Shown here: in pieces, positions 5,041-35,056 of the stretch
Numbering within the stretch: the stretch's first letter is position 1
Layout: each line of letters begins with the position of its first letter
Assembly (NCBI GenBank): GCA_001986395.2
Contig: MQVO02000002.1
Location: 2,356,001 to 2,420,000, forward strand
Reading direction: 5' to 3'
Length of the DNA stretch: 64,000 bases
Source: Irpex lacteus
Lineage: Eukaryota > Basidiomycota > Agaricomycetes > Polyporales > Irpicaceae
Translations under genes and position numbers: made by a program
The notes under the pieces: model-generated
Database searches by the model: none
What the model was told of the DNA's origin: nothing
Seen by the model: only the letters and a program-made list of their open reading frames with translations

Positions 5041-5217
5041 GAATAGTAATATTGGACTCTCGTTCACCTGGATATTTGATACTCAGGACCATGATTCTGG
5101 GTATGGACTCTTTCTGTCGTTTACACGTGTACATTTTAGCTGTAGTCGTACCCGCTCGCCGGTACTGTTAAATACGTTCGTTATTTGGGATTCGACTTGA
5201 GAAATACCTTTATACCA

Positions 5218-7145
5218 CTACTCCCTCGGGATCTCATATGCGCTTCTCTTTCCTTTCACGTCCTTCGCCCTATAATACTCAAACTCATCATCCACCGCCT
5301 CAATAAGATCAGCTTTCTCCAAGAACTCCAACGCGTCTCTGAAGCTTACAATATAAGATTCAGTCTTTCTCCAAGTTAAGGGTCAAAGTACTTACATGGT
5401 ATCGCTGTAGGATATGTTATCCTGACTATGAGTCCTCTTGACGTGTTGCGCGATCACTCGTATATGTACACCTCCGGAACCACCGTCTTCTTTGATCTTG
5501 AGTAAAATACTTCTCTGGAGTAACGTGAGATGAGATAATGGATCTCGTGTAGATAGTTGAGGCCTCCGGTTATTGGTAGTACGTTCCGTCGCAGGTGAGG
5601 CAGGTGTCGACGACCTAGAATCCCTAGATGAGGAACTGCCAGCGGCGGTTGCGGCACGTGTAGAGGTATCCGCACGACGGCTATCTGGAGTGGGAGACTT
5701 GGGTGTTGGACTCGATTCGGTAGCTGCTCCTTTTCCCTTACTCTTGCTTGTGCTAGTGGCAGTGGAAGAGGCGGATCTGGTCTGCTTAGACCCAGGACTA
5801 TTTATGGCAAGCGATCCCGTTCCACTATCAGAAGGGGACGTAGCGCTTGCGTCTCTCCAAATCTCACGGCGGCTCTCCGGGGCAGGAGCGGTTGGAGTCG
5901 GTTCGGTCGCGACACCTTTGTCTTTCCATCTACCCTTAACAGTAGTGCTAGGACTAGTGGTGAACCTAGTCTGCTTAGAGCCAGCCTGAGCTCCACTAGC
6001 CTCGGCCGCACCTGCGGGACTATTCAAGTTGAGAGACTCCATAGCATCGGTCGGGGACGTAGGAGACTGTGCTCTTGTACTTGTTCTACGCGATGGCTTC
6101 GTAGGGGTATGCGGTGGGGAGGGAACGGAAGGTGGATTGTGGGGAGACTGTCGAGGTGCTCGAGGTGCGGATATCGTTCTTGCCGGAGCGGGCGTGTTCG
6201 TAGGGTGGTCCTTTAGTACGCTGGGTTCGTACATGTCGTCGTCGTCGCTATCCGAACTGTCGCTGGAGTCTGCGTCCACCTGTCGACCCTTGCCTTTCAC
6301 GTCCTTATGATCATTGGCCTCAGGTTCACGTCGTATGATCGAACCGGGCTATTAAGAATGAGTATATCAGATCACGATGTATTGGATCGAAACGTGAAGG
6401 ACACTGTTATGACATGATAGAAAACTCACCGGTGGGCCTCGTTCGTACATTAACTCGGTCTTAACAACCTCCAATGCATGATAATACGGCTCATGAGGAT
6501 CGGCCACAGGTCTCATATAGTCGATCCTCAGAAAGTTCTTTCCACCCCCGAATTTCGACTCGTCCACGCGTCCTACGATACTCACATACCGCAGGCTTGG
6601 CAGCACACCCCGTTCGGATCTGGGAAGCAGGGGAGCATACTCGTCTGAATCTATGCCAGACAAGGACGCAAAGAGTGGCTGGTTCGGGTTGATGGTCCCG
6701 TCGTCGAGTTTGTAGGTGGCGTAGGAACGGTTGATGTTCTCTTCTCGGATCGTGGCTACGATGCGTACCTATAGTATATGGAACGAATAAGTACATAAGT
6801 ACACCGCAACTTTTGAGAATGTAGACAGATGAGACTTGGATTTCATACAAAAGATTTGAATGGGGAAATACAAATCACTTGGACGTACGGATTGAAAACT
6901 ACGTCCGTTAAGCACAAACAGCTTGGTCGCTGGATCACGCTGTGCTTTCAGGAGTTGGCGTAATGTCACCGGTCGAAGGACGTCTTTCGGAGATATTTTC
7001 TATTCCAGATCTTAGTGAGGGTGTTTTGAAATCTCTCCGTGGCTCTGTACACTGTATTGAAGATACACACCCATTTTGATTGAGAAGCGGATGACTGTTC
7101 GAGTTCAAGTTCATCAGCGCTACCATCCGCTTGAGTCCCAGCCAT
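5218..7145 (-). CDS. Divergent RPA32 (RPA2-like) paralogue with long acidic linker
   Basis: Probable single-stranded-DNA-binding protein related to the 32-kDa subunit of replication protein A. Exon 1 is 7071-7145 (MAGTQADGSADELELEQ...), followed by PVTLRQLLKAQRDPATKLF, then the OB-fold segment with VRIVATIREENINRSYATYK, YVSIVGRVDESKF and FLRIDYMRPVADPHEPYYH. A long exon (about 5390-6354) encodes an acidic, Ser/Pro/Thr-rich linker of about 260 residues, then DPLSHLTLLQRSILLKI and GGVHIRVIAQHV. The last exon has RDALEFLEKADLIEAVDDEF and stops at 5218. That C-terminus is the winged helix of RPA2. It is roughly twice the usual 270-290 residues because of the linker. The canonical RPA2 lies at 21857-23116 in the same orientation. 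A meiosis- or stress-specific role is possible but not shown. Confidence 0.8.
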
Positions 7146-7889
7146 CTACGACAATTCGGCGTGGAAGTCGGAATTCCTTTCGATCGTGATTAGTCGTAGT
7201 TGTGGCAAGGCCGGTTGTAAGCTCTATGCAGTAAACTGGAGAGATACGCGACAACGGAGACTCTTGGTTACTGAGCCCACGACAACCGTGGGTACTAACG
7301 CTGATCTAGTACGGATGATTCAACATTCAGATCTCAGTGAGTATCGTGACGTACTAGAGTCAGTGGCGTCGCAAGCAATGTATTCGTATTGCAGGTCCTG
7401 GGTTGAACGTTGAACGTTGAGTGGCCCAGGTGAGAGCACTGTGATCACTGGCATGGTCAGGGTCATACATGCCTTCCCACGTGGGAGACTCGGAGCATAT
7501 ATACTCATGGTCTCGGATCACTCTTTACAACACCTGCCTTCATCCCTTCATCTCCTTCAACGCCTCAGCACTTCAGCACTTTGGTACTCACATGCCCCAA
7601 GTTCACAAATATGTCTTCGGCGGAAAATATAGGCTCTGGGTACCAAATGGCCACAATTAATCTTGCGGAGCTCTTGTCATGAGACATTCTGTGCTAGGTT
7701 ATACCCGTCATTGAACTTGAAGGTAGCTACTTCGAGGGTGTAGTCCTTGAAGCTGCACATCTTAATATCACGAAGAGAAGGCAAAATAGTATCTGGTGCG
7801 TGCGCGAGATGAGCTCTCTCTGCGGCTCGGCTGATCTCGCACTTGCTTCTCCAGCAGCACCCCCGTCTTATTTTGGACTGATGTCAAAC

Positions 7890-7978
7890 AACGCGTCGCC
7901 GCGTCGCGATCGAACACGGCTGACGGTTTGTTTGGCTCGTCTTATGTCAGCCGTGGTGGCGGTAGGATTCCTATAAAG
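7890..7978 (+). promoter_or_regulatory. TATA module of unit 1
   Basis: ACGCGTCG and CGCGTCGCGATCGAAC precede a perfect 10-bp inverted repeat, CACGGCTGAC (7915-7924) with GTCAGCCGTG (7946-7955). A CTATAAAG box follows at 7971-7978, then a CT-rich stretch typical of strong fungal Pol II start regions. Confidence 0.55.
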
Positions 7979-8621
7979 TCCCCCTCGTCGTCGCAAGTCA
8001 ACCCTCATCTCTCTTTCCTCTCTTCCACCACCTTCCCTCCTCTTGACTGCCTCCTCTAGGGCTCGTTCGTCGCAGCGAGTCAACATCTGTGTCACATACA
8101 GTCTGGCTGCTTTACCCAATGTCTCTCTGGCCGTCGCCGTTGTCGTTCCTCCGTTGCTCAACGTTCGTCGTGACGCCCTTCGTGCCGTGACATGGCTTCA
8201 ACCTTCCAACGTCTGGCAGTAGCCTACCCTCTCTACCATCCACCACTCCGGATGGTATTCACCCCTTGACATGCGATGCTCGGGATCGTGTCCCTCGTCG
8301 CTACTCAGAGGTCATCCACTCAACTTTCCTTGTGTAGTTGACAGGGTCTTTCGGTGAGCACTTTAGGTTGTTTACGACTCACATCAGTCGCTGACAGCCT
8401 GTTAGCAGGCGCCATGTCTTGTGCTCTCCCTGGGGTTTACCCTGCCGGCTGGGTCTCCGATAACTACGTGCAACCTTCATGCTGGCCACCTTGGCTGGAC
8501 TCTTCTCTCTCCGGCGACATCCTCTATGGCTCTCAGCTTCTCTGACACGTCTAGAACGATCACTTCAGTCTTCCGAGGGCTAGCCACCACTCGACTCACT
8601 TCAGGCGTTTGCAGGATATAC

Positions 8622-8790
8622 GGCTGCGAAGAAAATGCAGAACGGGGGCTGCGTTGGTGGTGGTGATGAAAAGATGACGATGAATTTGCGGGAATCATTT
8701 CTATTACTAGGCTGCGAAGAAAATGCAGAACTGGGGGCTGCGTTGGCGGGGGTGATGAAGAGAATTTGCTTATCAACATCGAGAAAATGG
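8622..8790 (+). repeat. GGCTGCGAAGAAAATGCAG minisatellite, 2 units (unit 1)
   Basis: Two copies of the 19-bp core at 8622 and 8710, each followed by a divergent GGGGGCTGCGTTGGnGGnGG / GATGAA tail of about 60-70 bp. Confidence 0.8.
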
Positions 8791-8799
8791 CTGGCATCT

Positions 8800-9960
8800 A
8801 TCTGTGTTACTCTGTCCTGTGGCTAGCGGTCGACGTCTGATCTGTTCGGTTCTTGTGTTGTGTTCGTACTTGGACTTCTTCCACGAATTGGATCAGATCT
8901 TCGCCTCCTCTCGTTCTCTCCCTTCACCAAACGTTTGAGCACCAAGTACAACGAAAGGTCAAAACAGCAACTGGTACGTGCGCGAGGAGAGCCTCTCTCT
9001 ACGACCGGACTGACTCCTGTCAGCCGCCCCGTTCCATTCGAACTGGACCGCCGCGTTATGATCGAACATGGGCTGACGGTTTGTTTGGCTTAGGCTTCTC
9101 TTATGTCAGCTGTGGTGGTTGGATTTCTATAAAGTCCCCCTCGTCGTCGCAAGTCAACCCTCATCTCTCTTTCCTCTCTTCCACCACCTTCCCTCCTCTT
9201 GACTGCCTCCTCTAGGGCTCGAAGTCAATGACTGTGTCGCCTACTACAGTCTGCTGGCTCTACGCTATGCCTATCTGGCCCTCCCCTCTTGTCGTCGATG
9301 TCGCTCCCTTGTCGCTCATTGTCTTTCGCGGCGCCCTCCACGCTGTGATGTAGCCTGCAACCAGCAGTAACATACCCTCTCTGTCATCCACCACCGCTCA
9401 TGCGATGCTTGGGGTCGCGGCACCCATCGTTACTCGGAGGTCATACAGTCGAGTCTTTCGGTGAGCAATTCCGTTTGTTGACGATCCACGCTGGTGGCTG
9501 ACAGCCCGTCAGTAGGAGCTCTCCTGCGCTGTGCCTAGCTGTGCCTCCCTTCACGTCTGGCGACTACGCTCAACCTTCATGCTAGACACCTTCGCTGGAC
9601 TCTCCTCCCCGGCAACATCTTCTCTCGCTATCTGGCACTCTCCTCAGACGCATCTACTCTAGCACGACTACCTCAGCCTTCCTAGGGCCAACCACCACTC
9701 GGCTCACTATGGGCATTTGTAGGATACAAGGCTGCGAAGAAAATGCAGAACTGGGTGCCCGTAGCGGCGTTGACGGGGCGATGAAAAGATGACGATGAAC
9801 ACGCGGGGATCGCTTGTTTTACTAGGCTGCGAAGAAAATGCAGAACGGGGGCTGCGTTGACGGGGGTGATGAAAAGACGACGATGAACTAGTTGGTCATT
9901 TCTAAGGCTGCGAAGAAAATGCAGAACTGGGGGCTGCGTTGGCGGTGATGCGAAAGAGAA
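8800..9960 (+). repeat. Spliced-unit repeat, copy 2 (type A intron)
   Basis: Same layout as copy 1. TATA is at 9127, the intron is 9461-9515 (TCTTTCG before the GTGAGCA donor, CTGAC branch, GTCAGTAG acceptor) and three minisatellite cores lie at 9730-9924. The distance from TATA to donor is 334 bp, against 383 bp in copy 1. No conserved reading frame is seen. Confidence 0.6.
9045..9134 (+). promoter_or_regulatory. TATA module of unit 2
   Basis: CCGCCGCGTT and GATCGAACATG, then GGCTGAC (9071-9077) with a one-base-mutated partner GTCAGCT, then CTATAAAG at 9127-9134. Confidence 0.5.
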
Positions 9961-9990
9961 ATAGCTTATCGATATCGAGAAAATGGCTGG
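9730..9990 (+). repeat. GGCTGCGAAGAAAATGCAG minisatellite, 3 units (unit 2)
   Basis: Cores at 9730, 9825 and 9906, identical over 19 bp. The spacing is 95 and 81 bp. The last copy carries the GGGGGCTGCG-type tail, as do the last copies of the other arrays. Confidence 0.8.
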
Positions 9991-10451
9991 CATCGTCTCT
10001 GTCTTTGTTGCTCTGGTGTCATGGAATATCTTGTCGACGTCGCTGGCGGACGGATCTGTTCGGTTCTCATCTTGTCTTCGTACTTGGGCTTCTTCGGCGA
10101 ATGCGATCGGAACTTCGTCTCTATCTACGCTTCAGCACTTCAGCACTCTGCAGGACCCATGCCTTTTGAACACGTCTTCAAGAGACAATATAGGCTGTCC
10201 TTGTGACATTAGACACCCAACGGTTACTATCGCCTTGCGGAACTCTCGTGGTGAGACGTTCTATGCCGAGTACATGAATATCCCAATCGACTGCTTCGAG
10301 GGTGCAGTTCTCGAAACTGCACACCTGAATACAACGAAGGAAACTTAGGATCGTATCTGGTGCGTACGCCAAGAGAGACTCCCACTGCGGCTCGGCTGAC
10401 TTCACACTGGCTTCTCCAGCCGCACCCCCGTTTCATTCTGAACCTGCGCCA

Positions 10452-10544
10452 AACGACGCGTCGTCGGGTCGCGATCGAACATGGCTGTCGGTCTGTTTGG
10501 CTCGTCTTATGTCAGCCGTGGTGGCGGTTGGATTTCCTATAAAG
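10452..10544 (+). promoter_or_regulatory. TATA module of unit 3
   Basis: GACGCGTCG and TCGCGATCGAACATG, then a left arm with one substitution (GGCTGTC), the intact right arm GTCAGCCGTG, and CTATAAAG at 10537-10544. Confidence 0.5.
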
Positions 10545-11091
10545 CCCTTCCCCCTACCCCCGTCGTCGAAAGTCAACCTTCACCGCTCTTTGCTCTCTAC
10601 TACCCTCTAGAGTGCTTGCACGTCGCAGCGAGTCACAACGAGTCAGCGTATGTACCATCTCCGGTCTATCTGTTCTACGGCATGTCTCTCTCTCCTGCGT
10701 CGTCGTCGTTCCTCCGTTGTACATCGTCTTCCGCGCCGTGACCTAGCCTGTAACCTGCCAACATCCACTGGCAGCAGCTCACCCTCTTGACCCTCGACCA
10801 CTCCTCATGGCATACACTGGTAGTTGAAAGCCCTCCACACCCCGACTCGCTAGCTGTGGCCCTTCCTCCGTTGGTCATGATCACACAAGTTGGCCTTCAT
10901 ACGCCGGTGAGTACCTATTCCTCCCATCTATATCTCCTCGGAGCTAATCGTTTTACATGCAGACTTGGGTGGTGCTAGTTGAGACGTCAACCCGCTCGGT
11001 TTAACGGGACGCTACGGTCACTCTCGACTGCCTCCCCAACCTTTCTCGAGCTTCAAAGCTTCAGAATTCAACAAAGAGATGAACATGACAA

Positions 11092-11330
11092 GGCTGCGAA
11101 GAAAATGCAGAACTGGGTGCCCGTAGCGGCGTTGATGGGGGTGATGCAAAGATGTCGATGAACTTGCAGGATCTATTACTAGGCTGCGAAGAAAATGCAG
11201 ACATGGGTGCCCATAGCGGCGTTGGTGGTGATGATGCAAAGATGTCGATGAACTTGCTGGATCGTTTCCGTTACTTATAGGCTGCGAAGAAAATGCAGAA
11301 TTGGGGGCTGCGTTGGTGGTGGTGATGAAG
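11092..11330 (+). repeat. GGCTGCGAAGAAAATGCAG minisatellite, 3 units (unit 3)
   Basis: Cores at 11092, 11182 and 11280 (spacing 90 and 98 bp). Unit tails contain TAGCGGCGTTG and GATGTCGATGAACTTGC. Confidence 0.8.
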
Positions 11331-11340
11331 AGAATGAGCT

Positions 11341-12389
11341 CGACAAACTAGCACTGGCGATGGACCGTTTCTGTCTGTGTTGCTCTGATCCTTGGAATGT
11401 CCTGTCGCTGGAGGACTGATCTGCTCGGCTGTTGTCTTGTGTTCGTACTCGAACTTCTTCGGCGAATTTGATCGGTTGTTCGTCTGCTCTTGCGCTCGCT
11501 CTTTCAACGCTTCACATGCGCTGCGTTCTTAAACATGTCTTTATGGGACGATGTAAGTTGACATTCTTTCTTTAGGGCCCCAACGACCACAGTTACCTTT
11601 GCAGAGTTCTTGTCATGTGATATTCCGTGCTGGCCAGAAATAGACACCAGCGATCTTCATGTCCCATATGCATATCCAGGCGTATGTCTCCGTCGGGTGT
11701 CAAAACATACACATATGAACATTACTATCTCCGGCTCGAGGACCGTGACCGTCAGGTTTGGGGTATCCACATTGACAATATTCGGGATAAAGCAGTCAGG
11801 CAGTCATCTATACTACAAAAATGCTCGGGGGGAGTCGAGCAACTTCATTGGTGGAGACATGGAAGGATTCCGATTCGCTCTGGCGTCGTTTACGGCCTCT
11901 GATAGGCCACGGTTATAATAGGCCGTCGCTGGCTCCGTGTCATAAATCTTTCGTAGTCTGGGCCCTAGAGCCTAAGTGCTTACTGCCCCTTATGGCAATG
12001 ATCCCGAACTCTACACCTTCTGGGGGAGTCGGAGTCTTACACGGTGGTCGGGGGTCAGAGCATGCGGTCTCATTTGGATCGTACCCCTTGGCATGAGCCG
12101 CATGACGCTGTACTAGGGTCTGGTGTCTGAGTAAACTCGGTATGGACGTACTGCCAGATACTCTCTGGAGACATGCCAGTGTGTTGCTGCCCCTTCGAGC
12201 CATGTAAACGGGCACATACTCTGCGTCTACTGGGGGAGTCGGAGTCGTAACGCGGTCGGGGGTTTGACACTAGCGCGAAGTTGTAGGGCTTGCAAGTCGG
12301 GTGTTGTCTCATATTCGTGGCGAACTCGCACTGTGCGCCTGACCGTTCGCGAATTTCGCTTTTTGAGAATCAGCGCCATTCAGGAAAGA
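11341..12389 (+). repeat. Truncated fourth unit, then direct repeats
   Basis: 11341-11650 repeats the 5' part of a unit (TGTTCGTACT, CTTCTTCGGCGAA, GAGTTCTTGTCATG) but has no TATA module, intron or minisatellite. Farther on, two partial direct repeats of TGGGGGAGTCGGAGTC followed by GGTCGGGGGT occur at about 12019 and 12231. No gene is supported here. Confidence 0.45.
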
Positions 12390-12768
12390 ATTTAGTCTAG
12401 TGTCAATTATGACCCCTAGGCCTTCTGTCGCTGCACGGCCGCTCGGCTGCGCGATGAGCTTCACTCCCTGCAATGATGGCCACGACGCAGTCGTCCACGG
12501 TGATACTACTAGAGACATGTTGCCCACGCTCAACTCTATGTGTACGGACTATGCGGTGTTTGTCAGCGGCGTTGTTTCTTCACTCTGTTGTATTCCACGC
12601 GCAGCTTATAAAATGGGTCAGAGCGTTGAGAGGCATGATTCGTCAGCTCGGACTGAAAGGAGAAGACCTGGGCGCAGAACTTCTTCAGAACCCTTTGATC
12701 AAACGCTTTCACAGCACTGGCATCCGATGCTCCACACCACTATCTTGATGAGCTTTTGCTCCGGGTGA
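12390..12768 (+). pseudogene. Degenerate partial duplicate of the adjacent HNH gene
   Basis: Two pieces of the downstream HNH-type protein lie nearly fused and in different frames. The first (12404-12560) has AARPLGCAMSFTPCNDGHD, matching VARVLGFALRLAPNDAGRD of the intact gene. The second (about 12610-12740) has MIRQLGLKGEDLGAELLQNP, matching MLERYGAFKAEELGDEVLHS. The middle, with the catalytic His region, is missing, and the frame shifts between the pieces. It lies immediately upstream of the intact-looking copy in the same orientation, consistent with tandem duplication and decay. Confidence 0.6.
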
Positions 12769-12983
12769 CTCCCACCTCCGTGTTAGCCATGGGCTACGAC
12801 GAGTAGCGACCGAGAATGTACTACTCGCAGATAGCAGCTACATATATATATTGTTTAACGGTAGGCTTCTCGGAATACGATATTTATCTCACTCACTTTG
12901 AAATTTGAAGGGCGTGAGAGTCTGGAGCGTCAGCGCTCAGACGGCGGCTGAAGCGCTGAAGCTACTCTTTGTTTCCAACCACG

Positions 12984-14329
12984 ATGTCGCTTGTGAACTG
13001 GGGCCCCCAAAACCTACCACCAAACGGGTACAGCAAAAACACCGCAACACATACCGCCTATGACCATTGTCTATGGTTTGAAAACTTTGTCAGCTGGGAT
13101 ACACTCCTCAACGGGCTCCAACAGAACGTGAGCGAGGAGTTCACAACAGACATGCCTCCTGCCATTGTCGCGCGAGTGCTTGGCTTCGCACTACGCCTCG
13201 CCCCCAATGACGCTGGCCGCGATTATCTCGTCCACAATATCCTCATCTGCGAAAAAGATCCGGGACTCTTGGCTCGGCTCGCTCACCTCTATGTTTATGG
13301 GTTATGCCGCATTTGTACGTGACCTTGTTCATTCGTTCTGGTGCCTCTATGTAATCTACGAACAGTCTATAGTCCCAGAGGCCCAACACTCGATATGTCT
13401 AGTACCGACACACCCAGGTTGTCCTTCGAGGTCGTCGCAAACGGCTCGGCTATTCTGTCGTCGTCGTTCACCAGCGACACGGCACGTTTGCGGGTGCAGG
13501 TGCAAACCTTTCTTTTTTCGCCCTGTAAATTTTAACACATCAGTGTAGACCTTGCTTCGTGACAATATTCGTTGTGTATTCACCGGTCATATGGACACTA
13601 ACCAAAGGCTGAAACATCAGCGGGCTACAGGGGATTACCCTCATGGTCAAGGCGCGCCCACGAATGTGGCGCATATAATCAGCCAATCCTTGTCGGAGAA
13701 TATAGAGGGGGGTTCACCAGCTGCCGTAGCCAAGGTATCGTGTAGGATGTTTCCACCTCAAATTGATTTCTCACACTAGTTCCTAGTTCCAATGGGCCGG
13801 GACGGCGGGAGTCATGCTGGAGCGCTACGGAGCGTTCAAAGCTGAAGAGCTTGGCGATGAAGTTCTACACAGCCCTATGAACGTGTTTACAGCATCTGTA
13901 CCTCCACGCCACCTTTTCAATGACCTTCAGCTTTGGTTGACGCCAGCGATAACCATGGTGTGCTCGCTTTTTACGCACTCATCTCTGTGGTTGACTTGTT
14001 ATCAGGATGGGGAAACCCAAATTACCATACCGAATACTTATGAGGTCGAGTACCGTCCAGGTGTTGACATGGAAGTCCCAGGAGGCCTCAGCTCTCATGT
14101 CACGTTCGATACGTATGAAGTCGACGGTATCTTCATCCCAGCTCCTGATCCCCGACTCATCGCCCTCCATGCAGCATGTGCGAGAGCCGTCAACATATCA
14201 GGCGCGGCGAAATACATTGAGGAGCGTTATAGGGATACAGACCCAATCGCAGTCATGACTGCACCGAATGCTGTGTACGAATTGACCCGAGCCCTGACAG
14301 CGATACAGATGATTAGCGGTAGAGCGTAG
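12984..14329 (+). CDS. HNH_2-type endonuclease-domain protein (basidiomycete family)
   Basis: The exons join in frame from the ATG at 12984 (MSLVNWGPQNLPPN) to the TAG at 14329. Introns: GTACGTGA...ACAG near 13316-13370, GTGCAAACC...GTGTAG near 13504-13549, GTATCG...CCTAG near 13735-13790, and probably GTGTGC...ATCAG near 13958-14005. The product contains ARVLGFALRLAPNDAGRDYL, then LLRDNIRCVFTGHMD and VAHIISQSL (the AHI histidine motif), then MNVFTASVPPRHLFNDLQLW (Asn and His of the HNH fold). The C-terminus holds DPRLIALHAACARAVNISGA. This order matches the family of HNH nuclease-domain proteins expanded in Agaricomycetes. Its biological role is unknown; nuclease activity is inferred from the motif only. 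Confidence 0.72.
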
Positions 14330-16042
14330 AGTACTATTATACCTATAAAGTTACAGGTTGCAAAAGAGACATAAGTTGCAAATCGACATCCCGCACCTTC
14401 CACAGTAAGCTATTGATACCGGTAAAGTCGTGTGGACATGTAAACATACTCGACAATCATTTCTATCAAGTCACGAAAATATTCCGAGACTGTACCTAGC
14501 AAAGCGAGCATTACCGGCATGTTTTGCAACATCGAGTCTGAAGCTATCTGGCAAGATCCTAAAGATCCTCCCCGGCGCTGAGCTCAGTGTTAAAAGTCTG
14601 AATAATACAGGCCCGCTACCGAAGTGTAGCGGGTCTTTGGATTCCAGGGTGGACGAAATCGTTCGCGAATTACCTTTTTTTCACGTGGCCTCCGGTTCTC
14701 CGAGTCGGTGCATGGTATGGTTCTCTGCGTACTTATGCAGTGTGTAAGACCTGTGTTTTATACTAGAGCCCTGAAGTACTAGGTCACGGTGCGCAAAGTA
14801 TGTATTGGCTTTACTCGGGCGCCTGCGCACAAAGCTGCTCGCCGCAGGCGCGCAGGCCCGCAGCGATCCGTTCCTACAGCTGCTGCTGTATGTATTTACC
14901 TGCGCTCTTTCTATACTTAACGGCTGGTAGCTGCGAACGCAGCGTTGGTGAATTATATTATAAGCGCCCATATATTCGCGACAAGAATGAGACATGTCAC
15001 TTCACGTGCGGATCTACACCCGCCCTATACGTATACAAAATCCACCAGCCATCGAGACTATATAGGGCAGGAAGATCTTTACCACCGAAAATTTTTAAAG
15101 ATCTTAAACTTTAGTTTGTAATATATAGGAAATTTGGGTCTTTATATACATTTTTCTGAGGCTATTTTACTAAGATAAAACTACTCAATTCCCCGTGCTT
15201 TATAAGACGAAGTGAAATGATAGGAGAAACGGAACGGAACTAACAAAAAAGGAAGGCGGGCTACTCAACGCCCTCAGCCCTGGTCGGCGCTACGCGCCGC
15301 CATCATCGGGATAAACCCGCTGACGCCCGAATAAACAACACCCCGCCCGTGCGCTCAATGCCCCGACGCCATCAGATATCGTGATCGCCGCGCGGAGTAT
15401 CTCCGGTGGCGCTCCCGCTCCCGTCCTCGTCGTCCCCAGCGATGATGACACTTCTATAGACTTCTATGCTATTCCGAGTCCTCCTCCCCCTCGTCGATTC
15501 TCTCCGTCGTTTTTTGTATTATAGGGTAAATTGATACGTAGATTACGAATACAATGTTTGTTTATTTATCAGCCCGCAGGATCTTGATCTGAACACCAGA
15601 TCTGGTGTGGCCACACAAGTAAACACCCTTCTGTACATGCAACTACGAAGTGTACCCGCTAGTGACTCCACTATCGGGGTGTAAAATGTATATATACTAT
15701 ACAGAAGATGTTAAACTAGGTATTAGGCTTATAGGAGTGACCCCATGCACTAGGTATGCTGGCCACCATAGGAGGGTGGCCACACATATACAGAAGCGTG
15801 TGGGAGGCATTCTTAATGATGCAAACATATCTCTTATATGTATTCATTGTTAATATACTGTCCGATCAGCCTCGTACTTGCGGAATCCCCTTCCGGGCAG
15901 ATGTTCTCCTCCTCCCCTCCTAGACATGGAAGGCGCCCTCCCATGGGCAGGGAACTTACGGCGCGCACGAAATAACGTCACAGACATCAAGTATATACTA
16001 CATACTGATACTATGCAGGTTTTTACGAGTCTCGTTTACCTG
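14330..16042. other. Gene-poor stretch with small palindromes
   Basis: No supported gene. Visible structures include a GC-rich hairpin near 14818-14857 (GCGCCTGCGC with GCAGGCGCGC), a perfect 14-bp palindrome CACCAGATCTGGTG near 15594-15607, TGTGGCCACA nearby, and GGCCACC...GGTGGCC near 15762-15782. 15450-15870 is AT-rich. These may be remnants of mobile elements. Confidence 0.4.
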
Positions 16043-16209
16043 TGTGTGACGCTATAAGGTGTATGATAGTGGTAAGTGCGGTCACACTGGCACTGTGTCA
16101 AAACCTATGTATTACTCTGTATAAGTGCGTACACAAAAGGGGGGGGGGGCTAAAGTAAGTGTCGGAACATATTCTACATACACAATAACATACTACTAGC
16201 ACTTTACCG
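16043..16209 (+). repeat. 167-bp inverted repeat, left arm
   Basis: Pairs with 19119-19285 in reverse orientation with a single visible mismatch. Both arms contain an uninterrupted G11/C11 run of the same length. Outer and inner flanks differ, which fixes the arm ends. Confidence 0.9.
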
Positions 16210-19118
16210 AGAACGATTCGAAGCCCTGTGGCCTCAGATATGCTGAAAACCATGTGGAGAGCAGTGCAAACACGTAAAGTCGCGTACATTTCCCTCATCG
16301 CGAAAAAAACATTTAGTATACCTAACTATAGGTAGCAATAAAAAGGGCATCTCGCAATATCACCCGGTTCGAACGAGGGTAAGTGGCAGAAAAGGTGACA
16401 TCGACATCGTATAACTTTGGCAAGATATATCACCTTTGCCATTATGGCGCATGTTTATCACCGTGATTCACGGTGGCAGGCCTTTACCACCTTGTGCCAT
16501 AATGCGACATTTTATCACGCATTGTCATGCTGATCCACGGTATGTCAAGCTTCTGCGGGTATATTAGCTAGCTGGGCTGTTGTTGTGCACTGGGCTGCTC
16601 AAATCACTCCGAATTGGTAGAGCAAATGCAAATATCGTATTGTTACATGTACTGGTAAGCTAAGAATACAGTGGCGAGTCCGTGTCATGCAAAGGAAAGT
16701 CCGTAAGTCAAGTCCGAGAGGAATGTGGTAAAGGCGAGCACGCCTGTGAGGACGAATGCAGTCATGCGAGGCGAGGCGAGTTCTTGCACTAGGAGGCGGC
16801 AGACACAGAGCGGGTGAGAATCCGGACAAATACAGCGTGGGTGGCAGTGCGAGGCGAGGCGATGGGAATTCTTGCAATATGGGGTGATGGAAACAGAGCA
16901 TCGGGGTACGGCAAGGTTGACAAGTGGGCACGTAGAGAGCCGAACGATAAAGCAATGAGGTATAGGGGAATAGAGCGAGAGGTAACGAAAGCACTGCAAG
17001 GAGCCCGAAGAGCGAGATGAAGTGATGGTGTACAGGGTTCTTAAAATTGCGAGGATCCGAGTTAGCAAATGCTGAAGGTAACGAGTAGCCATGAGTAACT
17101 TGAACATCGCGTAAATGCGGCGTGAAACACTCACGGTAGTACGTACTAGTACTGTTGTGTGGTGAGCCGCCAAGTGGTTGAAATATGCGATCAGCTCGCA
17201 TATATGCATGCCACAGCGAGTATAAACGAGGACTTACAGAATTTAGATACTTACCAACGTGTTTTACGCTTGCGGCGAGGAACGCGATGTCGGCCTCGAG
17301 GTCGAAAGGAGCACAAACAACGATCCATACTGCACACCAAGCTTCCTGCGCTCCTTTACGTGATTCATTAGTGTATATATGCGAGTGGTTCTGAATCGAA
17401 ATACACGTACAGCTTCTTAAGAAACACTTCAACATGCAAGGAGAGTGCGGGAGGCTCTCCCTCGGCGTCGTCAGTTGTAATGCAAATCTTGAGTCTGATG
17501 GCTAGCCCGAAGAACCTATGAATACACCTCGCTGTTCTGCGAAGGTTTTCGTCGGAGCATCTCCGTGGTATGGGTAAGTGAGTGCTAATGATATGCAAGA
17601 CGAGGTTACAGTGGCTTACTTGAGAATGGCTTTGCCCCCCTACAAATTCTCGCAGTCGCGGGGAGGCCGTAGGGCAATCTTCGACGATTCTTCGTCTTCA
17701 GACTCAGACTCGGTCTCGGTCTCGAAGTCTTCTGTGCACTTGTTCCCTTGTTTCTCCTCGTCCTCGTCCTCCTCTTCTCGCTGACTTGGAACGAGGACGA
17801 GGGCATCAGAAGGCGGTGGCGGCGGTCAGGGAGCTCTGAGGCTGCTGGCCTTCGAAGAGGAAGACTTGTGCGTAGTGGTGAATTTTGGCGAGATATTTTT
17901 AGCTGAAACCATGATGATGGTGGTGGTGGTGGAAACGGAGGAAGAAACGGCTCCGAGCAAAGCAAGAATTTATGGCTGCTCTCAGTAAGGTTTGACAGGA
18001 TGCGTAACACTTGTCACAACGCGTTCAGGCCAGTATAAGAGGCGGCTATCACATGATCGTGACATGTGCGCTTTGGTAACGAGTGCTTGCTCCAAGTCGA
18101 GGCTCTTGTCTCTACTAGCATGCGGCTGGTAGAGGTAGTCGCATTTGTGGCTATTTACTCTACCCGTTCTCGTTAAGAACCCACGATGCTCAACCTGCGA
18201 TCAAATGTTCGCCAAGCCGCACAGTCTTCGTACACATGAAGGTATAGATGGCCACTACAGCGTCGATGGAATGAGCAGGAAGTTGAAGCCGAGAGAGAGC
18301 AGCTACGAGGGACGTTGAATAAGGTGCGTATATCACGAACTTTTTCCTTGTCATCAACTTTATACTGACAAAATTATAGCTTGAATCCTCTTCACCACAA
18401 ACAGAGGTGATTCTATCACATGGGAATCGGGCGAGATGGACGGCACACAGCTAGTAAGAGCAAGAAGACAAAGAGGACGACGACTCCGAACAAGAGGAGT
18501 ACGGCCACGGAACTAGCGAGAATAACAAAGCAGAAGGAGAAGACAATGGCGACGAGCAGGGCAACCGCACAGGATCTACAGAAGCTGGCAGTGGATTACT
18601 AGATAGCGAAGAAGACAAGGACGTCGAGGATGAATACGGTGATCTGAGCTTCGCCCGTTCCCAGGCTGACTCGCTCAGCCTGGGAATGCTTATTCTGTTA
18701 TCATGGCATGTATTATCGATTTAGACCCCTCGTAAAAACTCACAGTACAAGTACAACTGTAAAACATGATAGAAACAACAAAAACGATGTGTCTAGGCAC
18801 GGCCTGAGGGCTCCAGAACCACTATCTACGTATACGCGTGAATATTCGATAACTATCTAGGTAAGACCAAGTCACCCTATACCTTCTTATATCACCCTGA
18901 GCGAGTATGGTTCAAGTAGCTAAAGCCAAACGATTATGGCATAGGGAGGTATAGGGTGGCAAACGAACGCCACAAAGGCATACCATTAGACGCCTAGGCA
19001 AACTCTGCCACGCATTCCCATGTTAGGTCCCGTTTTGATTTTTTTCCCGATGCTGTTCACCAGTGTCACCCAAGCCGTGTTGAGATGTATCTAGGGCTAC
19101 AGAACTTCAATTCGCTCG
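16210..19118. other. 2.9-kb segment between the 167-bp inverted repeats
   Basis: Contains a palindrome CACCGTGATTCACGGTG near 16459, a 12-bp pair CACCCTATACCT / AGGTATAGGGTG near 18872 and 18944, and acidic open stretches on the minus strand near 17640-17780 (EDEEKQG...ESESEDEESSK) and the plus strand near 18460-18650 (EDDDSEQEEYG, LLDSEEDKDVEDEYGDL). These could be remnants of transposon genes, but no transposase motif is recognisable. The long minus frame at 16599-17435 is not convincing (see rejected). Confidence 0.35.
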
Positions 19119-19285
19119 CGGTAAAGTGCTAGTAGTATGCTATTGTGTATGTAGAATATGTTCCGACACTTACTTTAGCCCCCCCCCCCTTTTGTGTACG
19201 CACTTATACAGAGTAATACATAGGTTTTGACACAGTGCCAGTGTGACCGCACTTACCACTATCATACACCTTATAGCGTCACACA
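19119..19285 (-). repeat. 167-bp inverted repeat, right arm
   Basis: Reverse complement of 16043-16209. It abuts the second cluster of spliced units. Confidence 0.9.
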
Positions 19286-19484
19286 ACGCACGTTTATATC
19301 CCAATCGTTTTTGCAATATTGGTGGCTACTTCGAAAATGCAGACCTCGAAGCGGCACATCTGAATATAACGAAGAAAAGTCAAAATAGTGACTGGTGCGT
19401 GCGCGAGAAAAAAACTCTCTGCAGCTCGGCTGACGTCGCACTTGTCAGCCGCCTCGTTTTATTCGAACTGGACCGACGCCACAC

Positions 19485-19579
19485 AACGCGTCGTCGCGTT
19501 GCGATCGAACAGGACTGACGGTTTGTTTGGCTTCGGCTTCTCTTATGTCAGCCGTGGTGGTGGTTGGATTTCTATAAAG
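19485..19579 (+). promoter_or_regulatory. TATA module of unit 4
   Basis: ACGCGTCG and GCGATCGAACA, a left arm with one substitution (GGACTGAC), intact right arm GTCAGCCGTG, and CTATAAAG at 19572-19579. Confidence 0.5.
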
Positions 19580-20191
19580 CCCCCTCGTCGTTGCAAGTCA
19601 GCCCTCACTGCTCTTTCCTCTCTTCCACCATCATCTCTTCTCTTGTCCGCCTCCTCTTGGGCTTGAAGTCAATGTCTGTGTCGTCTACAGTCTGCTGGCT
19701 CTACGCTATGCCTCTCTAGCCTTCGTCCCTCGTCGCCCTCGTCCTCGTCGGTGTCGGCCCCCTGTTGCCCATCGTCTATCGTGGTGCCCTCCACGCCGTG
19801 ACCTAGCCTGTAACCTGCCAACATCCAGCTGTGACCTACGCTCCCTGTCATCCACCACTCCTCATGCGATGCTTGGGGTCGCGGATCCCATCGTTGCTCA
19901 GAGGTTATACAGTCGTCTTTCGGTGAGCAATTCAGTTTGTCTACAACTCACGCTGGTGGCTAACAATCCGTCAGTAGACGCTATATCTCGTGCTCTGAAC
20001 TCTCCTGCTGGCTGTGCCTCCCTTCACGTCTGGCGACTACGCTCAATCTTCATGTTAGCCACCTTCGCCGGACTCTCCTCTCCAGCGAAATCCTCGCTCG
20101 CTATCTTGTTCCCTTCTCCGACGCATCTAGAACGACCAACTTAGCTTTCCGAACCACTACTCGGCTCGCTGTCGGCGTCTGTAGGATATAA

Positions 20192-20430
20192 GGCTGCGAA
20201 GAAAATGCAGAACTGGGTGCCCGTAGCGGCGTTGACGGGGGTGATGCAAAGATGACGATGAACTTGCAGGATGTATTACTAGGCTGCGAAGAAAATGCAG
20301 ACATGGGTGCCCATAGCGGCGTTGACGGGGATGATGTAAAGATGACGATGAACTCGCGGGGATCTCTACTATTACTAGGCTGCGAAGAAAATGCAGAACT
20401 GAGGGCTGCGTTGGGGATGATGCGAAAGAG
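20192..20430 (+). repeat. GGCTGCGAAGAAAATGCAG minisatellite, 3 units (unit 4)
   Basis: Cores at 20192, 20282 and 20378 (spacing 90 and 96 bp), matching the spacing in unit 3. Confidence 0.8.
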
Positions 20431-20739
20431 AACTATTTAGCTTATCAACATCGAGAAACTGGCGGGATCGTCTCTCTGTCTTTCTTGCTCTGTCCTGTGG
20501 CTGGCGGACTGATCTGTTCGGCTCTCATCCTGTTTTCGTACTTCAAGTTGAACTTCTTGCGCGAATTGGATCAGATCTTCGTCTCCTTCTCGTTCTCTCT
20601 CCTTCACCAAACGTTTGAGCACTAAGTACCACGAAAGGTCAAAACAGTAACTGGTACGTGCGCGAGGAGAGCCTCTCTCTACGACCGGACTGACTTCCTA
20701 CTTCCTTCCTGTCAGCCGCCCCGTTCATTCGAAGTGGAC

Positions 20740-20820
20740 CGCCGCGTCGAGATCGAACATGGCTGACAGGTTGTTTGGCTCGTCTTATGTCAGCCGTGTG
20801 GTGGTTGGTTTCCTATAAAA
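20740..20820 (+). promoter_or_regulatory. TATA module of unit 5
   Basis: CCGCCGCGTCGAGATCGAAC, then the pair GGCTGAC / GTCAGCC intact over 7 bp, then CCTATAAAAT at 20812-20820. Confidence 0.5.
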
Positions 20821-21387
20821 TCCCCCGTCGTCGCAACTCAACCCTCACCACTCTTTCCTCTCTTCCACCACCTTCACTCCTCTCGACTGCCTCCTGTGTG
20901 GCTTGCAAGTCGCAGCGATTCAACGTCTGTGTCCTCTACAGTCTCTCTGCTCTACTCTATGTCTCTCTCTCCTTCGTCGTCGATGTCGTCCCCTTGTTGC
21001 TCATCGTCTGTCGTGACGCTCTCCACGTCGTGACCTAGCCTGCAACCTGCCAACGTACAGCAGTAGCCTACCCTCTTGACTCTCAACTATTCATCATGAC
21101 ATTCACTGTTAGTTGAAAGCCCCACACACCCTCCGACTCGTTGGCCGTGTCCCTTCCTCGATCACGCAAGTTGGCCTTCATACGCCGGTGAGCACCTACT
21201 CCTTCGATCAAGCTCTCCTCAGAGCTAATCATTTTCCCTGCAGACTTGGGTAGACTTGGCCATGGGTGGTGCCAGTTGAGACGTCGACCCGCCCGTTTAA
21301 CGGGACGTTATAGTCACTCTCGACTGCCTCCCCAACCTTTCTCGAGCTTCAAAGCTTCAGAATTCAACAAAGAGATGGACATGATAA

Positions 21388-21545
21388 GGCTGCGAAGAAA
21401 ATGCAGACATGGGTGCCCATAGCGGCGTTGGTCGTGGTGATGAAAAGATGCCGATGAATTCGAACTCGCGGGATCGTTTCTATTATGAGGCTGCGAAGAA
21501 AATGCAGAACGGGGGCTGCGTTGGCGGGGGTGATGAAGAGAATCA
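21388..21545 (+). repeat. GGCTGCGAAGAAAATGCAG minisatellite, 2 units (unit 5)
   Basis: Cores at 21388 and 21489. The array ends in AAGAGAATC like the other arrays. About 310 bp of non-repeated DNA without a supported gene follows before RPA2. Confidence 0.8.
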
Positions 21546-21856
21546 GTCTATATACGAGCTGGCGAGAACCGTGTCTATTCGTGCTGCATTGCTAGAGCGC
21601 GAATGGCCATGTCTAGTTCTCACCTTGTTTGAATTCGTACTTCGACTTCGACTTCTTCGGGCAGTTCAATGTTGTCGACGTCTTTGCTGGTGCAGATGCT
21701 TAATTAGGTCACGGTTGATGGTGTGGCGTGGATGGTCTGAACATGTCCTGGCCATGGAAAAGCAGGGGATTATTCAAACACGCGCATGTATTGTACACAA
21801 ACTTCAAAGCGACACCGATAGCAAACAGAAACAGTGCAACACACTAAAAATTGGGC

Positions 21857-23116
21857 CTAGATCGAGACATCGTAGTGACTCTCGTCAGAAGTCGTATAGA
21901 CATGCCCGTCGTCCATCAGCGCGTCCAGAGCGTTACTATAACACATTTTATTAACCCAATATCCAGTTTTTGTTGAGTAGACCCACCTAATAGCAACAGC
22001 ATCACCCCCCACAGCCCTCGCAATAGCAGCAATATGCACCCCCTCAGTATGGTTCGCCTGCGCCAAAATAAAGTTGACGATTCTGCGCTGTGTAGGCGGG
22101 AGGTGCGCGTATGCGTCGTGTTGCACGCCCGCTCCAGGGGTGTATGCGTTGGTGTTGCCGTTGGTGTTGGTGCCGTTGAGGGGACGGGGTTTGAGTTCTT
22201 CGCCGGGGCGGGGTGGCTATGGGGAGGGGGTGGTTAGTTATGGGAGGAAGGGAAGGCAGAGGAGGGAAGAGAGGGAGGGAGGGAAGAGAGGGAGGGAGGG
22301 AAGGGAGGGGGAAGGGAGGGGGAAGGGAGGAGGGACGTACGGGGCCGCGTTGGACGATGAGGGTGACGGTGCACGCGTCGAGGATGTGGAAGTATTGTTC
22401 GTGGTGGTCTTTGACGGGGCGGATGTGGATTGCGTTTATGAATCTGTTGTTCCCGAAGGATTTGAGGTTGCCGACTATGCGGATGTATGCTTGTTCTCTA
22501 CCATCAACAAACAAACAGAATGCACGTCAAGTCCCGTTCTAATGCGAGTGTGGACAAAGAGAGAGAAAGGGAGAGCAGAAGAGGGAGACAAAGCGTACTT
22601 GATATCGTCGTCCTCACCGGACTGTGAAGGGTCCACCCAGTGCCGCGCCTGGATCTGACCCGTCCCGTCGTCGAGGTCGTACGTGATATTCGTAGCCTGC
22701 GGGTTAATCTTGATAACTTGCGCAACCACAGTGACCTATCACTTCAACTTTAGCACATATCTACATCACACCCTCCGGGCACTGTAAGTGTATGCACGTA
22801 CTGGACCGATCTCCGTGTCGTCAATGTGCCAGTCCGCATCCGCGTGTGCCTGCGTAGCTTCTCGCAGTTGCTTTATAGTCGTTGGGCGCAGGGATTGTTG
22901 TATACCAGAACGCTAGTGAACAATAGAGGCGTTCAGAAGGAGGTTAGGATTAAAGGAAGAGGAGAAGCACCTTCATAGCCCCTCCAGGACTCCCGCCTTG
23001 GCTTCCACCTGGCGAGGGCATGTACCCTCCGCCACCGCCATAATAGGGGCTGTCATCTGTATTATCTTCAATAAAGAGTGGCCAAGGGAACTTTGCGAGG
23101 ACGTACATTGACTCAT
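21857..23116 (-). CDS. RPA2: Replication protein A 32-kDa subunit
   Basis: Subunit of the heterotrimeric ssDNA-binding complex of replication and repair. Exon 1 is only 10 bp (23107-23116, ATGAGTCAAT), followed by exon 2 (22971-23056) with the Gly-rich start YGGGGGYMPSPGG, where the phosphorylation-prone N-terminus normally lies. Exon 3 starts at 22915 with RPTTIKQLREATQAH. The OB fold follows: VTVVAQVIKINPQATNITYD, ARHWVDPSQSG, IRIVGNLKSFGNNRFINA, IRPVKDHHEQYFHILDA. The C-terminal winged helix has LPPTQRRIVNFILAQA, EGVHIAAIARAV and ALDALMDDGHVYTTSDESHY, ending at the TAG at 21857. All seven junctions keep frame. One intron (about 22217-22340) is a long (GGGA)n purine tract on the plus strand. 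Length (about 280 residues) is normal. Confidence 0.95.
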
Positions 23117-23162
23117 GGCTGTGTATTTGGCAAACTGGGTGGCCTACTTCTGTGTGTTGTGG

Positions 23163-23290
23163 GGAGAACGCGTTTGAGTCGTGGAGAGAGCAGAGCAGAA
23201 ATACGCGATGCCGCCTGTGACGCGACGCGTATTGTGTCGCGCATGTCACTGTCACACTTGTAACGCGTACTCATTAATTTTCTACGCGAC
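23163..23290 (-). promoter_or_regulatory. MCB-type ACGCGT boxes upstream of RPA2
   Basis: Three exact ACGCGT hexamers at 23168, 23225 and 23263, plus ACGCGA at 23284, lie within 170 bp upstream of the RPA2 start at 23116. ACGCGT is the binding site of the MBF (Mbp1/Swi6-type) G1/S regulator in fungi, which fits an S-phase gene. Confidence 0.6.
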
Positions 23291-23687
23291 TGCAAGCCCA
23301 AAGCACATATTCAAAGAAAAACAAATCCATACGCCCAGAAATTACTAAAGACAAGACCGATAGCGCTTCGCTTGGATTCAAGAAGTAAGAAAAGGTGATC
23401 AGGGTTTCAGAAATTTCAGACGTTGATATACACATCTATCTGTAAGCTTTCGTCCCATATTACTTCTGAGAACTCTTATTTACTACGCTGATCACACCTA
23501 TCCCGAAGTGACAATGATCGAAGCTGGCGCCGTACTTAGTACTACATAGCCAAGGTATTTGTGCCAGGTGTGAGGCCTCGAACCGGATGCGAATAGGTAT
23601 GCTACACCGCAGATAGGGATGCTACATACCATGAGCACATGGTGACCTGGACAAAGAGACAATGTGCTCTATCGTATCATCGATATG

Positions 23688-24183
23688 GCTCTACTGTGCG
23701 AGTTTGCTTCGGGAATCCTCCGGCGGTCCACATCTGTAGGCTGACCATGGCATGTTGCCCGACGGCGCGGGCTGTTCTGCTAGTGCACGTTTTAGTGAAT
23801 GTGAAAATCTAACACTTTGAGAATCCAACTTGCCAGTTGAAGCCAGAGTCGCGTCCGTCAGTGGCGGTGGCACCAACTTGAACACAGTAAGTATCTAACC
23901 TCTGTCCCTATCACTCAGATTGAGGGCTCACGGAGTTACGGTTTTGGCTCAGTGTCTTGTTGAGCAGAAGTCAGGCCATATGGGAGATGTTCTTCGGTTT
24001 GAGACGCTTGCTGCTTGCAGGATATGAGGCAGCCGCAGTTAGAGCAGGGTTGATTACTCCAGCATACAGAAGCTCACGCACCGTGGAAATACCGGCTTCG
24101 AGCCTAAAATGAGGTCTTCCATAGAACTCAGGCTCGCTTCTCCAATCAAAGCAGCAGCAGACGTCAATCCGGTGTTGCTCATG
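23688..24183 (-). CDS. Possible small gene next to retrotransposon insertion site
   Basis: An ATG at about 24183 opens MSNTGLTSAAALIGEASLSS and MEDLILGSKPVFPR, followed by a plausible intron (GTGCGTGAGC...CTCTAAC...AGCAG). An alternative further exon at 23691-23885 encodes FKLVPPPLTDATLAS. The composition looks like protein, but no family is recognised and the exon path is uncertain. The retrotransposon LTR begins only about 20 bp upstream of this ATG, so any promoter or 5' exon of the gene would now be 21 kb away near 45620. Between here and RPA2 nothing else is supported. Confidence 0.3.
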
Positions 24184-24202
24184 GCTGGAAGAGGAGTCTC
24201 AA

Positions 24203-24666
24203 TGTGACGACTCGACCGTCACGTCGGAGGGAACACACGAGGTACGTCCAACGGCGTAGGAGGAACTGAGGTGTATCCTCTCGCTTCTGCGAGAGATCTG
24301 ACGCGCGCCTGATCACGCGTCGGGCGAGCTCGTCGTCGAGCTCGCTAGGCTTCTGACTAAATTCTCCCGGGCCTCTATCAACGCCTTCTGGCGGACAAGG
24401 CAAGTTGGGGGAAAAAGAAGAAGATAACATTCAAGTAGGCGTGGTCGTCGACTATACTACGAGACACCACGCGTTATACACATGCACATGTAAACAAACG
24501 AAAACACGAAGTGTTGGGGCAAACGCCGGTCGGGTAGCTCGGCCTCTCAGCTTCGAGCATACCAGGCCGGGGGTTCGATCCCGACGAGTAGAAGAAACAA
24601 AAGGGAAAACTCGAAAAATACGTTACTTACAGAATTCGACCCGTTTGAAGTCCAAGACCCGTCACA
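24203..24666 (-). repeat. 3' LTR of the gypsy element
   Basis: 464 bp, terminal inverted repeat TGTGACG/CGTCACA. Contains a minus-strand open frame from the ATG at about 24430 (MLSSSFSPNLPCPPEG), open to the LTR end. Confidence 0.92.
24529..24585 (+). other. tRNA-like segment inside LTR, antisense to element
   Basis: GTCGGG (24529) can pair with CCCGAC (24580-24585). Between them are TAGCTCGGCCT (A-box-like, 24535) and GGTTCGATCCC (24572-24582), which matches the Pol III B-box pattern. No complete cloverleaf forms: the T stem is mispaired and the acceptor is short, so it is tRNA-like rather than a tRNA gene. Confidence 0.45.
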
Positions 24667-32370: not shown

Positions 32371-32378
32371 CATGGCAT

Positions 32379-33504: not shown

Positions 33505-33921
33505 AGTGCTGGAAAATGCGTTCTGTACTGGTTTTTGAACATATATTTGACATTTGACATCCTCTGACACATCATGAGGGCTATCAAATAATGATATAAC
33601 ACTCTATTAAGGTTCTAAGACATATCTAGTACAATACTTGGGCTTCTAAGCAATAGCTTGAGACACTATAATATGGAAACAGGCTAAGAAGCATGGATGA
33701 AGGTAAGAGCATGTACAGTGCAATGACTTCACTTCTCACTTATGCTGTATTCCTTCTATATCATACCTGCATGTCATGCTACTGAGGAGATCTTTCCTGG
33801 AGCATGTAGGGGTAGTGTATAGGTATCTATTATGACTTTTTATGATATTTATAGGCTATGTAGGAGGCAGTACATGGCAAATGTATGTCAGATTTGGGTG
33901 TTTTGCGCATTTTTTAACATG

Positions 33922-35047: not shown

Positions 35048-35056
35048 GTTCCATGG

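Follow-up and report, generated by a model that had tools for sequence, protein, structure and literature searches.

Units with a nearly invariant terminal 20-base word in Irpex lacteus look like an undescribed family of noncoding RNA genes

Behind the ribosomal RNA genes, the terminator boxes of the rDNA (Sal boxes, TTF-I) stop transcription or block forks. The VSG 16-mer and the conserved elements of Pneumocystis msg belong to large families that encode surface proteins. In plants, the TAS loci, i.e., the precursors of trans-acting siRNAs, give noncoding polymerase II transcripts that carry one or two invariant sites of about 20 bases. In S. pombe, meiRNA is the product of a single gene and carries the Mmi1-binding motif. 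A title cited in a review (PMC8113380) gives it a role as a decoy for Mmi1. We analysed a window of 64,000 nucleotides of the wood-rotting fungus Irpex lacteus (contig MQVO02000002.1, positions 2,356,001 to 2,420,000), in which a set of repeated units was found that, judging from their sequence, seem to be functional genes for noncoding RNAs of a family not yet described. An earlier note on this stretch had spoken of a five-copy family; five is the number in the window, but the search for further copies that it had proposed revealed 27 units on five contigs of the 44.3-Mb genome. Such a family was not described among the papers listed by full-text searches of a library with few subscription journals.

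The five units of the window are all on the plus strand, and each of them has a TATA box, a CT-rich leader, an intron of 52-56 bp and two or three terminal repeats in the places where the earlier note had put them, the first T of TATAAA being one base downstream of its CTATAAAG starts. Unit 1 (7722-8924) has its TATA at 7972, a GTGAG splice donor at +382 from it and two core modules at 8622 and 8710; unit 2 (8953-10121) has its TATA at 9128, the donor at +333 and three modules at 9730, 9825 and 9906; unit 3 (10291-11506), which has a middle of type B, has its TATA at 10538, the donor at +369 and three modules at 11092, 11182 and 11280. Unit 4 (19321-20606; TATA 19573, donor +350) ends in three modules at 20192, 20282 and 20378, and unit 5 (20633-21587; TATA 20814, donor +374), again of middle type B, in two at 21388 and 21489. 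The first core copies are thus at +651, +603, +555, +620 and +575 from TATA in units 1 to 5, which agrees with the 555-651 bp that had been given for a terminal repeat of two or three copies. The promoter core of unit 1 (7942-7977) consists of TTATGTCAGC, a spacer and TATAAA, and is built likewise in units 2-5, and its first 20-base core (8622-8641) has 12 exact copies at the other core starts of the window. In all five units, the donor is followed by CTGAC, CTAAC or CTAAT and then by a YAG that ends 52-56 bases past the donor; units 1, 2 and 4 have a second AG at 55, which matches the claimed intron length of 55-56 bp. The longer self-BLAST matches between these units are about 69-80% identical. 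The array is split by an insert (11507-19320), which holds a TIR element and the start of which (about 11,510-11,650) is similar by eye to the upstream sequence of the units. There are no tRNA genes within the window.

Throughout the genome, most units are arranged head to tail in arrays on one strand, with an overall difference of about 20% between nearest units. Three DNA searches of the genome had all of their matches in family members; the promoter-profile search covered selected stretches, and the genome-wide unit count rests on the other searches. Two contigs, which have the look of two haplotypes, share four arrays in identical order and on the same strand. Contig C23, which is most likely the other haplotype, has two units where the window has five; the arrays therefore expand and contract. 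C23 and C308 share homologous stretches that have diverged, for which reason a mating-type locus was also considered. It was rejected: STE3 receptors are on C37 and at 1.61 Mb of C308, matches to homeodomains (KN) are on C58 and C187, and none of these is near the units.

The conservation of the units is concentrated in a few parts. The repeat core is the 20-mer GGCTGCGAAGAAAATGCAGA, which is exact at 54 of the 60 counted sites and has one mismatch at four; the remaining two, both in the diverged unit of contig C1, have three mismatches each, and a further degenerate core-like stretch of that unit is off the search pattern and in no count. At the 58 sites outside the C1 unit, on which the module counts are based, only four letters of 1160 differ. 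On a parsimony tree of 26 of the 27 units (all but the coreless unit of C185), we found one change over the 20 core columns compared to a mean of 3.28 per column elsewhere, and the changes of the next slowest 20-column run sum to 4; this is the outcome of the per-site comparison that the earlier note had suggested. In the whole genome and on either strand, there is no core site outside the family within two mismatches, and at three mismatches there are six outside sites versus five in the control. The reversed-pattern control has five sites in all at up to three mismatches and, for the 19-mer, none at up to one mismatch. A chance origin of the core repeats is excluded, because the family holds 54 exact 20-mers as against these reversed-pattern counts. 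The 20-mer is absent from viral contigs and has one match among prokaryote genomes, in a Lysobacterales MAG, which is about the chance expectation in 257 billion bases.

The promoter is kept as well. TTATGTCAGC is present in all 27 units and TATAAA in 26, both being among the slowest columns, and 25 of the 29 genome sites of CTTATGTCAGCC are inside the family; a Pol II-type promoter is conserved in place. Some stretches of the leader, downstream of TATA, change slowly as well. A GTRAG donor, in one case GTAAG, is found in 26 of the 27 units, i.e., in every unit that bears a core; the unit that lost its TATA is also without donor and core. The strict pattern GTGAG, CTRAY and YAG is present in 24 of the 27 units. 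The GGTGAG columns have zero or one change, as do those of CTRAC apart from the R (three), and the acceptor AG has one at each column, compared to mostly 2-11 in the interior of the intron. The two middle types, which are 35-52% identical over the intron block, share the donor-branch-acceptor plan and the ends, and the C1 unit has kept its promoter and splice signals with all of its cores diverged. By this pattern of change, the signals of the predicted spliceosomal intron are kept by selection. All of these comparisons are among copies within one genome, so gene conversion could contribute to the conservation.

Several candidate RNA functions were considered for the module. At the gathering score, Rfam had no matches in the window; at E<=5, there were two weak ones with E-values of 2.6 and 3.3, both of which fall far short of the gathering score of their model. 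One of them is on the minus strand and overlaps the final module of unit 5. No covarying base pairs were found in the module, the covariation term being about 0 across 58 modules, and the folding signal was weak, with mean z-scores of -0.50 for first modules, -0.64 for last modules and -1.27 for the stretch that runs from the first module through the last; the opposite strand gave +0.2 to +0.3. Because of this, a folded RNA has little support and no RNA structure is supported. The hairpin AATGCAG/CTGCGTT was not supported: it shows no covariation, and the T of CTGCG is kept in only 79% of the modules, with no accompanying change in the left arm. Neither was pairing between leader and module (mean duplex z -0.52 versus -0.17 in the control, 25 units). 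A box C/D snoRNA was considered because of the TGATGA in the module and was rejected, since inspection by eye showed no CTGA partner in a fixed place and Rfam had no match at the gathering score. A small-RNA trigger locus like TAS had no source or target elsewhere in the genome above control.

A further question is whether the units code, or once coded, for protein. Codon tests on 25 of the 27 units (all but the unit of C1 and that of C185, which has no core) showed no coding constraint in any frame on either strand, none of the 36 region-by-frame tests exceeding the level of implausible frames, and the allelic exons of neighbouring genes, which served as a control, did show codon-position constraint. 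The core-to-core distances leave remainders of 0, 1 and 2 modulo 3 in 11, 8 and 15 of 34 cases, so no frame is kept, and the readings GCEENAE and AAKKMQN have no homologues at E<=10 among 5.8 billion proteins. Coding on either strand was rejected. It is decidedly improbable that the units are decaying protein genes, i.e., a tandem coding family that lost its frame and has a promoter that is still undecayed; some units contain stretches of up to 188 codons without a stop, and one frame of the core reads GCEENAE, but the third-position bias of the control exons is absent from every frame, the core spacing and the protein searches speak against it, and the core, donor, branch point and TATA belong to the sites that change least, which is the opposite of decay. 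The earlier note had proposed a loss of coding constraint; this part is not supported, because no finding shows an earlier coding state of the family. It is very doubtful that the units are instead genes for short peptides that are secreted or serve in signalling. Such peptides would be read from an ATG that is at a homologous column in 23 of the 27 units, about 100-155 bases past TATA and in many units the first, which opens a short, often Ser-rich frame, and the block with this ATG has the top share of in-phase bases (0.77). However, the A of this ATG changed four times on the tree, 21 of the 368 codons aligned in the frame are stops, and its weak synonymous excess (z 1.79) is not above that of frames that probably do not code (2.30, 2.08 and 2.03).

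The copies on five contigs would fit a non-autonomous mobile element with its own promoter, the other possibility that had been raised for these units, but the one-strand head-to-tail arrays, the order of which two homologous contigs share, make this extremely improbable. Moreover, homology of the four isolated copies begins at -53, -132, -213 and -450 from TATA, so that they share no ends, and the proposed check for target-site duplications found no clear one at their edges, the longest direct repeat there being 6-7 bases. The strongest competing reading, itself rather unlikely, is that the terminal module is a DNA element, the oriented copies of which bind a DNA-binding protein and, like the rDNA terminator boxes, stop transcription or block forks, with the transcript mattering little. 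It would account for a core that is almost invariant without covarying RNA structure, and for the one to three modules (mostly two or three) that close each core-bearing unit in the orientation of the unit, with conservation dropping soon past the last copy; it leaves the retention of the intron in all 26 core-bearing units and the slow parts of the leader unexplained.

The slow promoter motif, TATA, donor, branch point and core, together with the lack of coding constraint, point instead to a multicopy spliced noncoding RNA family, the first of the two readings in the earlier note, and agree with its view that promoter, splice sites and repeat core are what is conserved. Our best explanation, to which we would give an even chance, is that the units are multicopy genes, kept by selection, for spliced noncoding RNAs of Pol II type, the 3' module of which is a binding site for a protein or an RNA; we infer that the units are transcribed and spliced, that RNA is the active form, that it has a binding partner and that it acts as a decoy or scaffold. 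The private promoter (TTATGTCAGC and the TATA box) would start transcription at the CT-rich leader, the spliceosomal intron of about 50-67 bases would be removed, and the second exon would end in one to three copies of the module with its nearly fixed core. The leader and the terminal modules would be the working parts and the middle a spacer. The tandem modules of the 3' exon may form a multivalent site for one RNA-binding protein, or for pairing with one RNA, and the unit RNAs may serve as scaffold or decoy, like repeat-bearing decoy RNAs of the meiRNA type, while copies would be gained and lost by unequal exchange within the arrays. A bolder and unlikely proposal is that the units represent a new class of fungal noncoding RNA gene, a haplotype-variable tandem family of spliced RNAs in which selection sees only promoter and leader, the presence of the intron and one to three modules, and which would capture one partner multivalently, with its dosage set by copy numbers that are unequal in the two nuclei of a dikaryon. 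In fungi, sequence drift makes it difficult to detect families of functional noncoding RNAs; in the present case, 27 diverged copies in one genome expose the constrained letters of promoter, splice signals and 20-base word without other species. What matters within a long noncoding RNA thereby becomes a question for direct testing, as word, copy number and partner are all open to assay. Should the module act as DNA, it would be a new, nearly invariant site for a protein where polymerase II-type units end.

Among the described systems, meiRNA with Mmi1 resembles the Irpex units in that a noncoding RNA carries a short word several times to which a protein binds (both putative in Irpex), but it is a single gene, whereas the Irpex family comprises 27 units with a longer, near-invariant word and an intron in each core-bearing unit. 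The plant TAS loci share the invariant sites of about 20 bases in noncoding polymerase II transcripts, as inferred for the Irpex units; in contrast to them, the Irpex family has no complementary small-RNA locus within two mismatches on either strand genome-wide, and the middle of its units is unconstrained. As in the VSG and msg families, one short word is invariant in a large family, the body of which drifts; those families encode surface proteins, whereas the Irpex units have no coding signal. Like the rDNA terminator boxes, the Irpex words are short, invariant and oriented and are repeated behind a transcription unit, but they end TATA-box units with an intron, and the likeness is one of arrangement, neither of sequence nor of protein.

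The five units of the window, each with a TATA box, a CT-rich leader, an intron and two or three terminal repeats that carry a 20-base core word, are real and lie at the coordinates that the earlier note had given for them. That note had also suggested a search for further copies, and these exist: the family comprises 27 units on five contigs, not just the window's five. Copies on these five contigs were found by a DNA search of the whole genome (44,346,346 bases, 317 contigs) with three probes, while a promoter profile, applied to the fetched stretches only, returned 28 rows for 27 units, as one of the units occupies two rows. By this profile, C308, the contig on which the window spans 2356001-2420000, carries 12 units (five in the window and seven at 2.291-2.308 Mb), C23 carries 10, C185 three, and C257 and C1 one each. 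Genome-wide, the pattern of TTATGTCAGC, a spacer and TATAAA occurs at 26 sites, every one of them within family units. The remaining unit, the 27th, lies at C185:1049k; it reads CAATAAA and has neither donor nor core, one instance of a joint loss of these signals.

The core, GGCTGCGAAGAAAATGCAGA, was found in the genome 54 times exactly and four times with one mismatch, always within units. Two more copies, in the diverged C1 unit, differ from it at three positions each; at this level there are six other sites, and the reversed control gave five. Two or three copies are present in 25 of the 26 core-bearing units and one copy in the remaining unit. Successive cores are 78-107 bases apart, and these 34 distances leave remainders of 0, 1 and 2 on division by three in 11, 8 and 15 cases. 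Past the core, the module also contains GGGnGCnGCGTTG and, in looser form, a TGATG block. A tree built from 26 units had a length of 4.97 substitutions per site; on it, the core changed once in total over its 20 columns, compared with 3.28 changes per column elsewhere, and the second-slowest run of 20 columns summed to four. In the column listing, no more than one change per column was seen in the TATA box, in TTATGTCAGC, in the donor GGTGAG and in the CTRAC branch point, one of whose five columns was the exception. The upstream CGATCGAAC motif and the leader were also slow in parts, and most columns of the middle and of the intron interior had 2-11 changes. The GTRAG donor is present in all 26 core-bearing units (as GTAAG in one), and the C257 and C185:1242k units fail the strict splice pattern with GTAAG and the branch point CTGAA, respectively. 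Unit middles come in two types, of which the second, type B, is found in units 3 and 5 and one C23 unit. Its intron block is 35-52% identical to those of the other units compared; despite this low identity, donor, branch point and acceptor are present at similar spacing, and promoter, leader and modules are common to both types.

The claim that the units are non-coding was supported by a test of synonymous versus other single changes between nearest-unit pairs, in which none of six regions showed clear coding constraint in any of six frames. The top positive z values (2.30, 2.08, 2.03 and 1.79) were scattered over unrelated frames on both strands, the most negative were -3.47 and -3.18, and the in-phase share of aligned bases was only 33-77%. 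In contrast, the control, three exons of neighbouring genes compared between alleles (one of them partial), had no gaps and gave 40, 29 and 34 changes at the third codon position, with no more than 20 at the first or the second. An ATG at a homologous site occurs in 23 of the 27 units, but its A changed four times on the tree.

Window 4237-8262 and 21387-24208 each align in a single piece with L016, a stretch of C23, at 87%, window 2400-7700 corresponds to C23:100.5-105.7k in two pieces (84-90%), and allelic exons of C308 and C23 near the window are 91-93% identical. Because flanks and exons align in this way, C23 most probably represents the second haplotype. Inside the common flanks, C23 has two units, whereas the window has five and a 7.8-kb insert. 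Three further arrays are alike in order and strand on both contigs, with unit counts of 2 and 3, 3 and 3, and 2 and 2. The suggestion of a mobile element is disfavoured: the homology of four isolated units ends at different points, and direct repeats at the edges are only 6-7 bases long. The data fit tandem duplication with unequal exchange rather than transposition.

In two places, genes flanked by arrays of opposite orientation run in reverse on one contig relative to the other. The first of these inverted blocks pairs C308:2293.0-2297.1k with C23:50.9-46.8k (79-81% identity), and the second pairs C308:2301.3-2305.5k with part of C23:66-62k (about 74%). The stretches concerned are L009 6547-9941, L010 53-680 and L010 4954-9058 of C308, against L013, L014 and L015 of C23. 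Outside these blocks, the contigs are colinear and closer, with identities of 94.8% at C308:2286.5-2290.2k and, next to the arrays of the window, 86.8% and 87.3%; identity is 74-81% in the inverted blocks versus 87-95% in the colinear flanks. As exchange between inverted arrays would yield this pattern, it appears that inversions have their breakpoints in the arrays too, and the higher divergence of the blocks looks as if recombination had been low since the inversion. The second block contains the CDC45 gene (L010 5069-7686). Its two exon stretches match C23 at 82% and 76%, with an excess of third-position changes (78 out of 153 and 58 out of 94), compared with 91-93% identity for the allelic exons near the window.

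Other elements and genes were observed nearby. Identical 464-bp direct repeats (LTRs) at window 24203-24666 and 45151-45614 flank a Gypsy-type element with a reverse transcriptase at 26967-30641; between them lies an inverted repeat of 1150 bp (32371-33520 and 33906-35055, 99.3% identical). The C23 flanks join at about L016 8809-8819, and because of this empty site the insertion of about 21 kb appears to be young and present on one haplotype only. A further element, at 16043-19285, consists of about 3.2 kb between terminal inverted repeats (about 198 bp, 95% alike); the one frame that was scanned matched nothing in Pfam, and the element stops just short of unit 4. Directly past unit 5 lies a minus-strand gene with an RPA_C domain (21857-22735), and a second minus-strand gene upstream of unit 1 (5392-6874) resembles it by eye, but two stretches of this second gene were scanned and neither matched a Pfam family. 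The product of a neighbouring gene had three protein matches; the two that carry a name are both from Irpex lacteus, one at 87% over 62% of the query and the other at 45%. Matches to STE3 pheromone receptors and homeodomains (KN) at C37:427-458k, C308:1613k, C58:2744k and C187:165k may mark mating-type loci of the strain.

With promoter and splice signals retained, a spliced RNA would be made, and with the coding signal absent, its product would be the RNA itself or the act of transcribing it. The nearly invariant tandem word close to the end would be where a partner binds. No support was found for a folded RNA, for pairing between leader and module, for a small-RNA partner in the genome search for the core, or for a known RNA family, with no Rfam match at curated scores. 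As these readings are unsupported, a multivalent protein-binding RNA is the leading mechanism that we infer from the sequence. Its chief rival is a DNA-binding terminator or boundary.

Both spliced noncoding RNA genes and decoy RNAs that carry repeats are known kinds. For the variant seen here, which has 27 members, a 20-base terminal word that hardly varies and a copy number that differs between haplotypes, we could find no match: a full-text literature search, with most subscription journals outside its reach, listed no comparable family.
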